This document shows positions 42,674 to 58,150 of a stretch of DNA of 64,000 nt, piece after piece. Each line of letters starts with the position of its first letter. Position 1 is the first letter of the stretch. This stretch comes from Bdellovibrio bacteriovorus str. Tiberius. GTDB taxonomy: Bacteria; Bdellovibrionota; Bdellovibrionia; Bdellovibrionales; Bdellovibrionaceae. Under the pieces are notes generated by a model. The model ran no database searches. It saw only the letters and a program-made list of their open reading frames with translations, and was not told where the DNA came from. A program made the position numbers and the translations under genes. The DNA is taken from assembly GCF_000317895.1 (NCBI RefSeq), contig NC_019567.1:930001-994000 (forward strand), written 5' to 3'.

Positions 42674-43216
42674 CTATCCCCAGGACCAAATCACCGAATC
42701 AAATCCCGCCCGCCGCCAAAGGGGATCTTTCTTCATAATGGATTCCACCACCATCAGTCCCTGCTCAACGTTTCTTTCTATATACTTCCGCACAATTCCG
42801 AACCCTCGCCCCATAGAGGTTACGCGAGTGAAGGGGCGAAGGTCCCACATGCCTGCGGATTTGAAGATCATTTTGGAGATGGTTCCTGTCAGGGCGCTGA
42901 TAAAGCTGACATAGGCTTTGCGATCAGGAACGCGGATTAATATATGGATGTGATTGCCGACGTTGGCAAAGCTGTAAAGTCTCACCTTGAAACGAAACAC
43001 AAATCTTCGCGTGTATTTCAGAAGCATCTTTCTGTTCGCCGGATGTAAAAGGGACCTTCGCCCGAAGGCTTTATTGCTCTTAAGTACCAAGTGAATAGGT
43101 TCAAAGTTTGAAAGCGGACGCTGACTGCGTCTTTTGCCTTTGGAAAGTTCCCCTCCATAAGAGGTTCCATTGAAGTCATGTCTTAGATCGCCGCCGAAAG
43201 AAAAGTGTTTTGCCAT
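42674..43216 (-). CDS. REP-associated tyrosine transposase (RAYT, IS200/IS605-like HUH)
   Basis: A 180-residue Y1-transposase domain protein. The HUH motif is HIH at residues 89-91 in VGNHIHILIRVPDR; the catalytic Tyr is probably Tyr145 in RKYIERN. Such enzymes nick single-stranded DNA at a Tyr and rejoin it; RAYTs act on REP hairpins and are generally chromosomal and vertically kept. The N-terminal 45 residues are basic and unlike the family core. AAGGAG at 43222-43227 fixes the start at 43216. A second reading as an ordinary IS200 copy is less likely, because it is flanked by matched inverted repeats and lacks an accessory TnpB. Confidence 0.85.
   Translation of the reverse strand: MAKHFSFGGDLRHDFNGTSYGGELSKGKRRSQRPLSNFEPIHLVLKSNKAFGRRSLLHPANRKMLLKYTRRFVFRFKVRLYSFANVGNHIHILIRVPDRKAYVSFISALTGTISKMIFKSAGMWDLRPFTRVTSMGRGFGIVRKYIERNVEQGLMVVESIMKKDPLWRRAGFDSVIWSWG
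42834..42846. repeat. internal motif copy GGGCGAAGGTCCC (plus orientation)
   Basis: It differs by one base from the terminal core GGGCGAGGGTCCC. It forms an exact inverted pair with 43051-43063, both inside the transposase gene. A shorter related string ACCCTCGCCCC is at 42802-42812. Confidence 0.7.
43051..43063. repeat. internal motif copy (complement orientation)
   Basis: GGGACCTTCGCCC is the exact reverse complement of 42834-42846. The four 13-bp copies at 42657, 42834, 43051 and 43253 alternate in orientation, 177, 217 and 202 bases apart. Confidence 0.7.
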
Positions 43217-43252
43217 GTGCAACTCCTTGATGGAGCGCCTTAGCTGCAAAGC

Positions 43253-43269
43253 GGGCGAGGGTCCCCAAA
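43253..43269. repeat. right 17-bp inverted repeat of the RAYT element
   Basis: GGGCGAGGGTCCCCAAA, an exact reverse complement of 42653-42669. A further direct partial copy, GGCGAGGGTC, lies at 43301-43310. Confidence 0.85.
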
Positions 43270-43318
43270 TGGCTGTGGGAGGTGATGGAGGACCGAGTGA
43301 GGCGAGGGTCGGAAAGGA

Positions 43319-43337
43319 GGGAGGGCGGGGGCGGGGG
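43319..43337 (+). other. strong G-quadruplex motif
   Basis: Four G-runs of 3, 3, 5 and 5 (43319-21, 43323-25, 43327-31, 43333-37) are separated by single bases (A, C, C) on the plus strand. Single-base loops make the most stable class of intramolecular quadruplex. It lies 19 bases beyond the ppx stop codon, between ppx and the RAYT gene, and next to a REP-like direct repeat. The strand is the template for minus-strand transcription. Confidence 0.75.
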
Positions 43338-43355
43338 CGGAAGCGGAAGAAAGTG

Positions 43356-44267
43356 CTAAAGCATGGACCAGATCAGGCCGTCGCGCAGGCCGACGTTGGG
43401 GATCAGGATCTTTTCAGCTTCGGCTTGGCGCATGATGGTTTGGACCAGCATGGCTGCCGGGACAATGACGTCGGCGCGGTCGGGGCGAAGGTGCAACTTT
43501 TCAATACGGTCTTTGACCTTCAGGGTGCGCAGGCGGTCGATGATTTCGGTAAGTTCAGCCAGAGTCAGGAAGGACTGTGGGGATTTTTTCAGCAGTTCGC
43601 CTTTGAGTTGGCCCAGGCATTCCAGATTGCCGCCGGTGCCGATGGCGAAATCCACCGGGTCGTGATCACAGTTCTTATAGATATGCTCACCCAGGGCGCC
43701 GATGAATTCTCCCATGATGATATTCAGGTGATTTTCATTCAGATTTCTTTTGGCCAGATTTTCCAGCACACGCACCGTGCCCATCGGGAACGACTTGGTT
43801 GCCAGCATCTTCGGCCCTTGTGAAAAGGTGACCTCGATGCTGCCTCCGCCGATATCAATCAGCATCGTTTTTTTGTTGTCCAGATCCAGCTCTTTGCGCA
43901 CGGCCAGGTGAATCAGGCGGCCTTCTTCAGTGCCATCAATGACCTCGATTTTGATGCCCGAGGTTTTATAAATCAGATCCACGAATTCTTTCTGATTTTT
44001 GGCTTCACGACTGGCCGAGGTGGCCACGGCCCGGCACTTTGTCACACCCAAATCTCGATTGGTCAGGGCATAGCGCTGAAAGGTGGCTTTGGCGATTTCC
44101 AATGAAGCCGGCGTGATCAGCCCTTGCGTGAAAACATCGTGCCCCAGTCGAACAGCGGCGCGATACTTTTTCACGATATGCAGGTGCGGAGCTTGCTCTT
44201 GAACGTCAGCAATCATCATGCGAATGGCATTGGACCCGATATCGATGGCGGATATACGACGTGACAC
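43356..44267 (-). CDS. ppx: exopolyphosphatase / GppA-type phosphatase
   Basis: A 303-residue Ppx/GppA phosphatase of the actin-like ATPase fold. SAIDIGSNAIRM (phosphate loop 1), ATSASREAKN, IDGTEEGRLIHLAV and MLIDIGGGSIEVTF (phosphate loop 2) are clear, as is AIGTGGNLECLG. It corresponds to the N-terminal two domains only and lacks the HD-type C-terminal domain of E. coli Ppx, as in many short homologues. It splits polyphosphate, or pppGpp, which cannot be told apart here. The start is GTG 44267 with AAGGGAG upstream. With ppk 6 kb away it closes the polyphosphate cycle. Confidence 0.9.
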   Translation of the reverse strand: MSRRISAIDIGSNAIRMMIADVQEQAPHLHIVKKYRAAVRLGHDVFTQGLITPASLEIAKATFQRYALTNRDLGVTKCRAVATSASREAKNQKEFVDLIYKTSGIKIEVIDGTEEGRLIHLAVRKELDLDNKKTMLIDIGGGSIEVTFSQGPKMLATKSFPMGTVRVLENLAKRNLNENHLNIIMGEFIGALGEHIYKNCDHDPVDFAIGTGGNLECLGQLKGELLKKSPQSFLTLAELTEIIDRLRTLKVKDRIEKLHLRPDRADVIVPAAMLVQTIMRQAEAEKILIPNVGLRDGLIWSML

Positions 44268-55157: not shown

Positions 55158-56149
55158 TGCAGAAGATTGTAGTTAAATCTCCGACACGTGTGGATTTGGC
55201 TGGGGGCACATTGGATTTGTGGCCCCTTTATTTGTTTATCAATGGAGCTTCCACCGTCAATGTGGCTATTGATATCTACACTGTTGCGGAACTGACTCCG
55301 CATGATGATTCCACCATTGTACTGGAATCCGCAGATTTGAAATTGCGCAAGGCCTACAGCAACCTGCAAGAGGCCTTGGCGGATGCGGATCCTCAGATGA
55401 TTCTGCTGCAAACCCAGCTGCGTTACTGGATGCCGCAAAAAGGTTTCACTTTAAAGACGTCTTCGCAAAGCCCGGTGGGCGGGGGATTGGGCGGAAGCTC
55501 CAGTCTGACAATCAGCCTTATGAAAGCTTTTGCGCAGTTCTGTGGAAAGCCATTCAAAGATGTGCACAACATGGTTCATGTAGCCCACAATATCGAGGCT
55601 GAGATTTTGAACACTCCAACAGGGACCCAGGATTATTATCCGGCGGCTTCCGGTGGGATCAATGTCCTGCACTATAGCTATGACGGCATCGAACAAAAGG
55701 TTCTGCCAGTGTCACACACGCCGCTGGCTGAAAAGTTCATGCTGGTCTATACCGGTAAGGCCCATCATTCCGGTCTTAACAACTTTGAGGTGATGAAGGA
55801 TTCCGTTATCAAGGATGCGCGAACATTACAGGCCCTGCGTGATCTCAAAGGTATTGCTATTGAGACCGAGCATGCCATCCGCGCCGGCAACTGGAAAGAC
55901 CTGGGAGGGTTGTTTAAACGCGAATTTGAAGCCCGTGTCCGCTTGGCCCCGGAATTTTCAAGTCCTGAGATCTACAAGCTTGCGGAAGTCTCTTTGCAGA
56001 ATGGGGCAGAGGCTGTTAAAATTTGTGGAGCTGGGGGCGGTGGCTGTGTGCTGGTTTGGTGTCCTCCGGATAAACGTGAGGGAGTAGCCAACGCATGCCA
56101 AAAAGCCGGCTTCCAGGTGATGGACGCAAAACCCGTCGATCCCCTGTAA
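55157..56149 (+). CDS. GHMP-family sugar kinase
   Basis: A 330-residue GHMP kinase. PTRVDLAGGTLDLWPLYLF is the N-terminal substrate motif; SPVGGGLGGSSSLTISL (about 103-119) the ATP loop; ICGAGGGGCVLVWC the C-terminal motif 3. It is nearest to heptose-7-phosphate kinase (HddA) and fucose kinase-like members, so a role in surface sugar synthesis is possible. Translationally linked to DUF4340 (TAATG), which ties a sugar kinase to an envelope ABC system. The next gene starts 55 bases before its stop. Confidence 0.82.
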   Translation: MQKIVVKSPTRVDLAGGTLDLWPLYLFINGASTVNVAIDIYTVAELTPHDDSTIVLESADLKLRKAYSNLQEALADADPQMILLQTQLRYWMPQKGFTLKTSSQSPVGGGLGGSSSLTISLMKAFAQFCGKPFKDVHNMVHVAHNIEAEILNTPTGTQDYYPAASGGINVLHYSYDGIEQKVLPVSHTPLAEKFMLVYTGKAHHSGLNNFEVMKDSVIKDARTLQALRDLKGIAIETEHAIRAGNWKDLGGLFKREFEARVRLAPEFSSPEIYKLAEVSLQNGAEAVKICGAGGGGCVLVWCPPDKREGVANACQKAGFQVMDAKPVDPL

Positions 56150-57033
56150 AGAAAAAGACGACGAAGAAGACCGCAGTTAAAAAAACTGCGGCTTCGGCGA
56201 CGCATGCCGGAGATGTTCATCGTTTCATCGGTCTGTCCCTGGGGGGCGGTAAAACCGACAAGGCCTGTCTGGCCGTTCTGGAATACTATCCCAAACATAA
56301 AAAAATCTTTCTGTCGCGCTTGGTGGAAAAAATCAAGAGCGACGAAGTTCATTCCGCTGATTTCAAAATTCAGGAAGTCATCCGTCAGTATCACAACGAA
56401 ATTGATCTGATTGCGTTTGATGTGCCATTCAATTTGCCGGTGTGTCTGCAATCGGATGATTGCTGCACCAGTATCGAGGATTGTAAAAAGCCCCACGTTA
56501 AATGGATGTGGGATTACACCCGCAAATTGCACAAGAAGAAAAAACCGCGCAAGCTTTTCACTCCGTATACTCAGCGCTGTGTGGAGATGTATGTGTCTTC
56601 CGAACTGGAAGAACCTTTCATTCTTCAGCACGCGATGGGGGCGAACACCGCACCCTTGTTGGCGCGGGCGATGTACTTGAAGCGCGGGTTGAAAGCCAAA
56701 TGCATCGAGGTCTTTCCGAAGCTTTCTGTATGGCGACTGGGGCGGTCCTTGAACGTGATGAAAAGTCACCTGCGCTTTCATAAGCACGCCATCGGAGGGG
56801 ATGAAAGTCGGCGCGAGATACTGCACGCCTTAAGCGCTCATAATGTCGCGTTCGTCTATGATCAGGACGTAAAACTGATGATTGAAAACAATCACGCCTT
56901 CGAAGCCTTTATATGTGCTTTGACGGCCTTCCTAAGTTTCAAGGGCGGCACCGAGCCTCGCCCAGATGGGTTTCCTTCCAACGAAGACTGGATTGAATTC
57001 CCACGTCTGAATGCGCGTTGGGACGGATTCTAA
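56095..57033 (+). CDS. DUF429-type predicted nuclease with basic N-terminal tail
   Basis: A 312-residue protein. The first 40 residues are Lys/Arg-rich, resembling the nucleic-acid-binding tails of this genome's other proteins. The core FIGLSLGGGKTDKACLAV and IAFDVPFNLP, with two acidic positions, are DUF429 (RNase H-like fold) marks; FEAFICALTAFL is the closing motif. The family is predicted to cut nucleic acid, but activity is untested. Cys-rich CLQSDDCCTSIEDCKK around 115-130 may bind a metal. It overlaps the kinase gene by 55 bases in another frame. A large palindromic element starts three bases after its stop. Confidence 0.78.
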   Translation: MPKSRLPGDGRKTRRSPVKKKTTKKTAVKKTAASATHAGDVHRFIGLSLGGGKTDKACLAVLEYYPKHKKIFLSRLVEKIKSDEVHSADFKIQEVIRQYHNEIDLIAFDVPFNLPVCLQSDDCCTSIEDCKKPHVKWMWDYTRKLHKKKKPRKLFTPYTQRCVEMYVSSELEEPFILQHAMGANTAPLLARAMYLKRGLKAKCIEVFPKLSVWRLGRSLNVMKSHLRFHKHAIGGDESRREILHALSAHNVAFVYDQDVKLMIENNHAFEAFICALTAFLSFKGGTEPRPDGFPSNEDWIEFPRLNARWDGF

Positions 57034-57035
57034 TC

Positions 57036-57194
57036 GGCCCTGCCTAGGTGTGGGGCTACCCTCAGTCAGTAATTTCGCGACACGCCATCCGGGCTCTGCC
57101 GTGGCCCGCGCTTTCGCGCGGGTGCGCGCCGTCGTGGCGCCCACGGAGGTCGCTGCATTTCTGCCTGTGTGTAGCCCCGCACCTAGGCAGGGCC
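57036..57194. repeat. 159-bp multi-branched palindromic element
   Basis: Outer arms 57036-57059 and 57171-57194 are inverted repeats of 24 bp with one mismatch, which becomes a G-U pair in RNA. Inside, CCGTGG (57099-57104) and CCACGG (57141-57146) close a junction with two hairpins: CCCGCGC-TTTC-GCGCGGG (57105-57122) and GCGCC-GTCGT-GGCGC (57126-57140). GCGAC/GTCGC adds another short stem. It is far more G+C-rich than its surroundings, starts three bases after a stop codon and has no T-tract. It may be a MITE-like or REP-type repeat or a structured RNA. Small open frames through it are by-products of its G+C content. The remaining 57195-57337 holds a likely promoter. Confidence 0.8.
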
Positions 57195-57337: not shown

Positions 57338-58150
57338 ATGGCTGATTTTCCTTATTTGCATGGGTTCACCAAAGAAGAACAAGATCGTTTGCGCAAACAG
57401 GCGCGCTTCGGTGAACACACGGTTTATCAAAATATCAATCTATCCAACGTGAAAGATCTGCTGGAAGTCGGCTGCGGGGTTGGCGCGCAAAGTGAAATTA
57501 TTTTGCGGCGTTTTCCAGACTTGAAGCTGACGGGCATTGATCGCAGCACGAAACAGCTTTCTGCCGCTAAACACCGTTTAAGTCATCTGCCCTTTGCCGA
57601 GCAGCGCTTTGATCTGAAGGAAATGGACGCCACGGCGATGGATTTTTCCTCGAATTCTTTCGACGGCGCTTTCTTGTGCTGGATCCTGGAACATGTGCCG
57701 GATCCGATCCGGGTATTGTCAGAAGTGCGCCGGGTGCTTCGTCCGGGCTCTGTGGTCTATGCCACTGAAGTGATGAACGCTTCGTTCTTCCTGGATCCGT
57801 ATTCACCGAATGTCTGGAAGTACTGGATGGCGTTCAATGAATATCAGCTGAAGCAAAAGGGTGATCCGTTTGTCGGGGCGAAGCTTGGGAATTTCTTTAT
57901 GCAGCTGGGATATCATGACATTCACACCGAAATCAAAACCTGGTTCCTGGACAATCGTTATCCGCAAGCGCGCAAAGACTGCATTGAATACTGGAGTGAG
58001 CTGTTACTAAGCGCCAGCGATCAGCTGGTGGAAGCTAAATGCATTTCCCAGGAAGTGGTTGACGGGGTGAAGGAAGAAATGGCCCGGGTTGCAAGTGATC
58101 CGAATGCCGTGTTCTTTTATTCCTTCGTTCAGGCACGAGCTCGGACCTAG
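57338..58150 (+). CDS. class I SAM-dependent methyltransferase
   Basis: A 270-residue enzyme of the UbiE/Methyltransf_11 class. LLEVGCGVGAQSEI is the SAM loop (about 47-60), LTGIDRS the acidic strand 2 end, and FDGAFLCWILEHVPDPIRVL motif II-III wording, followed by LRPGSVVYATE. The substrate, perhaps a quinone, lipid or small molecule, cannot be named. It stands alone with its own promoter and a strong terminator. Confidence 0.85.
   Translation: MADFPYLHGFTKEEQDRLRKQARFGEHTVYQNINLSNVKDLLEVGCGVGAQSEIILRRFPDLKLTGIDRSTKQLSAAKHRLSHLPFAEQRFDLKEMDATAMDFSSNSFDGAFLCWILEHVPDPIRVLSEVRRVLRPGSVVYATEVMNASFFLDPYSPNVWKYWMAFNEYQLKQKGDPFVGAKLGNFFMQLGYHDIHTEIKTWFLDNRYPQARKDCIEYWSELLLSASDQLVEAKCISQEVVDGVKEEMARVASDPNAVFFYSFVQARART

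Follow-up and report, generated by a model that had tools for sequence, protein, structure and literature searches.

What is the 159-bp palindrome that directly follows a DUF429 gene in Bdellovibrio bacteriovorus str. Tiberius: a chance fold, a structured RNA, or an inserted repeat? We scrutinized a window of 64,000 nt of contig NC_019567.1, the whole stretch of DNA that was analyzed (genome size, 3,988,594 bp), together with related genomes. The features of the window to which the text refers are as follows.

42674-43249: RAYT-like Y1_Tnp gene
56095-57033, + strand: DUF429 gene (PF04250, by Pfam), whose stop codon precedes the element
57036-57194, no strand assigned: whole element, one copy of the family, delimited by its fold and by further copies
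57036-57059, + strand: left outer arm, 24 nt, pairing with 57171-57194 with one T/G mismatch
57060-57076, + strand: left inner arm, with pyrimidine mismatches at regular spacing
57074-57156, + strand: conserved core, match to covariance model R1 (85.9 bits)
57077-57081, + strand: 5' side (GCGAC) of the inner stem that closes the junction, pairing with 57149-57153; covarying pairs
57084-57094, + strand: hairpin a, short, GCC-ATCCG-GGC
57099-57104, + strand: 5' side of the stem around hairpins b and c, pairing with 57141-57146; covaries in most copies
57105-57122, + strand: hairpin b, perfect here and variable in sequence; bottom-strand triloop C(GAA/AAA/GCA)G in most copies
57126-57140, + strand: hairpin c, perfect, GCGCC-GTCGT-GGCGC
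57154-57170, + strand: right inner arm
57171-57194, + strand: right outer arm, 24 nt, pairing with the left outer arm
57338-58150, + strand: methyltransferase gene, downstream, which adjoins the DUF429 gene without the element in five relatives

A branched palindromic repeat family in Bdellovibrio

As the preliminary description of this DNA had it, the element is a palindrome of four stems, with 24-nt outer arms (one mismatch, G-U when the top strand is read) and a branched junction that carries two perfect hairpins. It begins 2 nt past the stop of the preceding gene (56095-57033), which Pfam confirmed as DUF429, and no T-tract lies 3' of it. The stem formed by the outer arms continues toward the core with regularly spaced pyrimidine mismatches. 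Because none of 200 dinucleotide shuffles folded as well, whether as RNA or as DNA of either strand (z = -9.0 for RNA, -9.7 for the DNA top strand, and -10.3 for the DNA bottom strand), a chance palindrome is excluded for 57036-57194. A search of the genome and its relatives by sequence and covariance model, which the preliminary description had proposed, returned second copies and covariation rather than the solitary, noncovarying palindrome that would point to chance.

DNA matches to the element interior revealed further copies in Tiberius and were obtained in 20 Bdellovibrio genomes. Covariance model R1 (82 positions, for a core of ~82 nt; copies counted at E <= 0.001) matched the Tiberius genome 12 times, and with the best 150 candidates per genome scored, at least 307 matches were found in 22 of 24 Bdellovibrio genomes, ranging from 3 to 30 in each. 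Outside the genus, only one genome among the 345 others from the phylum (369 in all) carried the element, a member of the same family as Bdellovibrio with four copies, and a long degenerate pattern run against a species-level genome collection matched Bdellovibrio only. Phage, plasmid, and viral contig collections yielded zero matches, on which ground a phage or plasmid origin was rejected, and no Rfam 15 family matched at its gathering score, the best candidate (E = 1) falling short of the threshold. No earlier description of the repeat was found in the literature searched, the coverage of which was limited. This genus-level repeat family, whose members are branched palindromes that follow gene 3' ends, is real and apparently undescribed so far. 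Hairpin c was also encountered alone, as three perfect hairpins with the tip GCC-ATCGT-GGC and the rest of the element missing (L018:1068, L124:1893, and L197:889); with only these three solitary copies, an abundant mini-repeat derived from hairpin c was rejected.

Position of the copies relative to genes

Using a simple codon-frame gene finder, 153 copies were placed in their gene context. A same-strand gene preceded 113 of them, and in 107 of these 113 its stop codon lay within 160 nt of the core. Among near copies, 66 of 70 had no T-run between stop and element, whereas 29 of 37 far copies had one, as after a terminator hairpin; the element therefore follows the stop codon directly or comes behind an apparent terminator. 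In convergent gaps, the same-sense stop was the nearer one for 45 of 54 copies (p = 7e-7), and gaps between codirectional genes held 49 copies in sense and 30 in the opposite orientation, a moderate preference (p = 0.04). Only six copies occupied divergent gaps. Inverted pairs, in which copies face each other between convergent genes, were frequent. No excess on either replication strand was apparent by eye in one genome (G004), with the contig start assumed to be the origin.

Intrinsic terminators are likewise hairpins at gene 3' ends, but the Bdellovibrio repeat has no T-tract, often follows a terminator, and is branched and too long. The earlier view that the element is not a terminator was upheld by the T-runs that lie before it in the far copies and by an attack-phase transcript, APsRNA6, that reads through one copy (PMC3627812). 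In G035, a copy at ~4300-4540 of L175 (G035:C8:165000-173000) sits within a further inverted repeat of ~30 bp that has the look of a split terminator (AAAAGGTACCAGGTCGC...GCGACCTGGTACCTTTT), an arrangement that suggests insertion into a terminator loop.

Pairing, arm sequence, and the folding strand

The copies have in common a branched core and a long paired outer stem, the sequence of which is largely private to the site, and they mostly stand in one orientation after gene 3' ends. From the outside inward, the outer stem spans ~35-40 bp in most copies, longer than the 24-nt arms in the window, and many copies carry the stem-base motif 5' GGATTTG ... CAAAT 3'. An internal loop of top-strand pyrimidines separates the outer stem from the core. 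The core begins with a closing stem, followed by the short hairpin GCC-NTCNN-GGC and then by a stem that bears hairpin b, variable in sequence, together with hairpin c (GCGCC-NTCNN-GGCGC). Standard pairs filled 97.2% of the paired cells in a set of 39 diverse cores, with 165 double changes against a shuffled mean of 53, and only 2 of 975 cells had one-sided changes, both to G-U. Shifting the partner by 1-3 columns lowered core pairing to 33-46%. Larger core sets, in alignments fitted to the model, agreed with the 39-core result, and one of them gave 319 double changes.

The sequence of the outer stem differed between most nonorthologous copies, with pairing nonetheless kept, and the group to which the window element belongs had a degenerate arm consensus in common. 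At orthologous sites, most pairs carried the same arms, but at some sites both arms had been rewritten and still paired, next to left flanks that were 86-98% identical. In L059/L070, the arms were 61% and 51% identical and the flanks 98% and 92%; the corresponding values were 63% and 59% against 92% and 92% in L036/L224, and 58% and 59% against 86% and 97% in L009/L010. Over the ortholog pairs compared, 59 base pairs had changed on both sides and were still Watson-Crick, vs. 43 one-sided changes. Selection on the fold, template-directed correction, and replacement by another copy are candidate accounts of this concerted rewriting. Arms copied from another copy were rejected for a second group, whose private arms share nothing beyond orthologs. 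A conserved branched core combined with helices rewritten on both sides, in neighboring DNA that is nearly unchanged, is rare among bacterial repeats, and ~300 natural structure variants offer a test of what keeps genomic palindromes paired, fold selection or template-directed correction.

The preliminary description had taken the G-U mismatch in the window as a hint of selection on RNA. Family-wide, the opposite pattern was found, as 95 mutually dissimilar outer arms read on the sense strand contained 10 G-U vs. 38 A.C mismatches (p = 6e-5), whereas 142 intrinsic terminators from the same loci, taken as a control, contained 24 G-U vs. 10 A.C (Fisher p = 1e-5). The same arms held 51 pyrimidine-pyrimidine vs. 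3 purine-purine mismatches (p = 3e-12). Read on the bottom strand, A.C and pyrimidine-pyrimidine mismatches become G.T and G.A, the mismatches best tolerated by a folded strand. With DNA energies, the bottom strand was also predicted to fold better than the top strand in 151 of 164 copies (p = 2e-25), and with RNA energies in 112 of 164; coding flanks had no strand bias in predicted stability. Most bottom-strand loops of hairpin b read C(GAA)G, C(AAA)G, or C(GCA)G, and C-GNA-G loops are exceptionally stable in DNA. By mismatch statistics and energy models, in which the copies are related by descent and the counts partly nonindependent, the changes and mismatches are shown statistically to fit a bottom strand that would fold as single-stranded DNA, not a sense-strand RNA. 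An RNA role for the repeat is less likely.

Mobility, competing explanations, and known systems

That the element is an inserted repeat, as had been proposed, gained support from the scatter of at least 307 copies across the genus and from relatives in which the same junction is empty. The window site was occupied, with clearly related flanks, in G000, G005, and G023, and in five relatives (G010, G011, G014, G021, and G022) the DUF429 and methyltransferase genes lay a few tens of bases apart with no element between them. Multiple dispersed copies per genome (12 in Tiberius, up to 30 elsewhere), along with occupied and empty states of this junction among relatives, are what is expected of a MITE-type element. 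MITE-like bacterial repeats such as ERIC and NEMIS/Correia are noncoding, foldable, tens to hundreds of bp long, dispersed, and geneless, with conserved ends. The Bdellovibrio repeat is also noncoding, foldable, dispersed, and without a gene of its own, but it is the core that is conserved, the arms being largely site-private with only the short base motif GGATTTG...CAAAT recurring. No exact insertion borders or target duplication were caught, because the empty sites lie in diverged species, and since many sites are common to several species, the repeat moves only slowly, if it moves at all.

Neither a transposase or recombinase nor a composite with a gene turned up for the repeat. At one site, G000 differs from HD100 in that the element and the next gene are missing and the gene before is retained; a "gene plus element" cassette was rejected, since this difference takes the element with the next gene and not with the preceding one. 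A spacer shared between inverted pairs was likewise rejected, as the right flanks that were 80-95% alike over ~90 nt proved to be the partner's own core in reverse, and the aligned spacers had no common sequence. A transposon-like arrangement, with a gene inside inverted pairs, was rejected too: one 1.4-kb inverted pair in G035 encloses a 178-aa ORF, and the other spacers are mostly 200-700 nt with no shared content. A decayed copy was noted in L127 at ~1640-1790 (G000:C1:1379640-1379790), an inverted-pair partner stem in which base and arms are kept and the core is replaced by a short sequence.

We assign a probability of about 0.5 to the reading that the window element belongs to a dispersed DNA repeat, specific to Bdellovibrio and of mobile or formerly mobile type, that is recognized as folded bottom-strand DNA. 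Such a repeat would be nonautonomous and would have spread perhaps rarely and long ago, through an enzyme that may recognize the folded bottom strand by analogy with RAYT on REP hairpins or IntI on attC. Sites downstream of genes might be preferred because insertion is harmless there or because the DNA becomes single-stranded. Continued recognition of the fold would keep the helices paired and leave the exact sequence of the outer helix free to change. If the folded bottom strand is indeed recognized, this would point to a novel enzyme acting on single-stranded DNA in predatory bacteria. We put forward only tentatively that the repeat represents a new class of element, mobile or domesticated, with a branched single-stranded DNA fold whose junction would be read by a Bdellovibrio enzyme, with gene 3' ends targeted one-way and the outer helices diversified concertedly.

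We consider it unlikely that the repeat acts instead as a sense-strand RNA in the 3' UTR, stabilizing or processing the upstream gene's mRNA, or binding a protein in the attack phase. Copies do lie right after stop codons in sense orientation, and one HD100 copy is transcribed. In genome G005, which we take to be HD100, one core occupies 1,339,156-1,339,239 on the + strand, in a coordinate frame that was checked by the c-di-GMP-I riboswitch, which was found inside the published merRNA interval. This copy falls within the HD100 attack-phase transcript APsRNA6 (1,338,787-1,339,441, + strand; PMC3627812), which runs on past it, so the element is no efficient terminator there. The depletion of sense-strand G-U, unlike in terminators from the same loci, nevertheless argues against a sense RNA, as do the terminator-like T-runs that separate gene and element in 29 of 37 far copies and a bottom strand that is the better folder even with RNA energies.

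A host DNA site that is not mobile, where a cruciform or folded strand would be bound by a chromosome protein as a transcription-unit barrier or a supercoiling or replication site, would explain why copies keep to gene ends and to the gaps between convergent genes, why their pairing is of DNA type, and why some orthologous sites were retained for long. Species of this one genus, however, carry anywhere from 0 to 30 copies, and sites are gained and lost, so a repeat fits better than an essential site, and we hold the host-site explanation to be quite unlikely. Antisense RNA, transcribed from the bottom strand and folded, would match the tolerated mismatches on that strand, namely G-U and G-A, and its greater stability with RNA energies as well. 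It is improbable nonetheless, as G-U read on the bottom strand accounts for ~2% of arm pairs and <1% of core pairs, compared with 11 of 65 in tRNAs from the same loci (three tRNAs only), and the low value of ~2% in the arms favors DNA over antisense RNA. Moreover, the 49 copies between two sense-strand genes would each require an antisense promoter of their own.

The explanation to which we give very little credence is a REP-type repeat mobilized by a resident RAYT protein: the gene at 42.7 kb, which the preliminary description had named as an example of a possible mobilizing enzyme, does encode a Y1_Tnp protein, such enzymes act on folded single-stranded DNA, and RAYT-like Y1_Tnp genes occur in 21 of 24 Bdellovibrio genomes, but RAYT mobilization was rejected by linkage (no core match at E <= 5 in any of 31 RAYT loci with 1.5-kb flanks) and by co-occurrence (element without detectable RAYT in G007, G012, and G016, with 6-15 copies, and RAYT without element in G002 and G003). 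REP, BIME, and REPIN sequences resemble the repeat in that they are palindromes scattered outside genes, frequently close to stop codons and in inverted pairs, with palindromy kept via complementary changes, and a Y1 enzyme is believed to process REPs in single-stranded form. REPs, however, are 20-40 bp long, with a head of the GTAG/GTGG or CGTC kind, and they flank a RAYT gene (PMC2817692, PMC3733652), whereas the Bdellovibrio unit of ~160 bp (159 bp in the window) has a branched core, no common head at the stem base, and no RAYT linkage. RAYT-like Y1_Tnp genes number from 0 to 12 per Bdellovibrio genome, which suggests several independent RAYT lineages in Bdellovibrio. Just upstream of the start of the RAYT gene in the window, positions 43250-43360 are strongly purine-rich, with repeated GGGCGG/GAGGG units.

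Integron attC sites are also long, sequence-variable palindromes just past a stop codon whose bottom strand folds, and the bottom-strand preference computed with DNA energies (151 of 164 copies) is a behavior common to both rather than a mark of membership. Identity with attC was rejected. Unlike attC, which is a single hairpin, the Bdellovibrio repeat is branched; attC boxes (RYYYAAC/GTTRRRY) were present at the ends of 2 of 164 copies vs. 0.45 expected, no integron integrase (TIGR02249) scored over the cut-off in any of 24 genomes, the matches being Xer-like, and no cassette arrays were found.

As an unannotated repeat, the element complicates Bdellovibrio transcript maps, APsRNA6 holding one copy. 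An 88-codon frame in the same transcript (G005:C1:1338813-1339091, L292:1314-1592) would encode a putative membrane protein (MNTELGAFALRQVLAS...) and ends before the element, so APsRNA6, rather than being noncoding, may be an mRNA whose 3' part includes the element.
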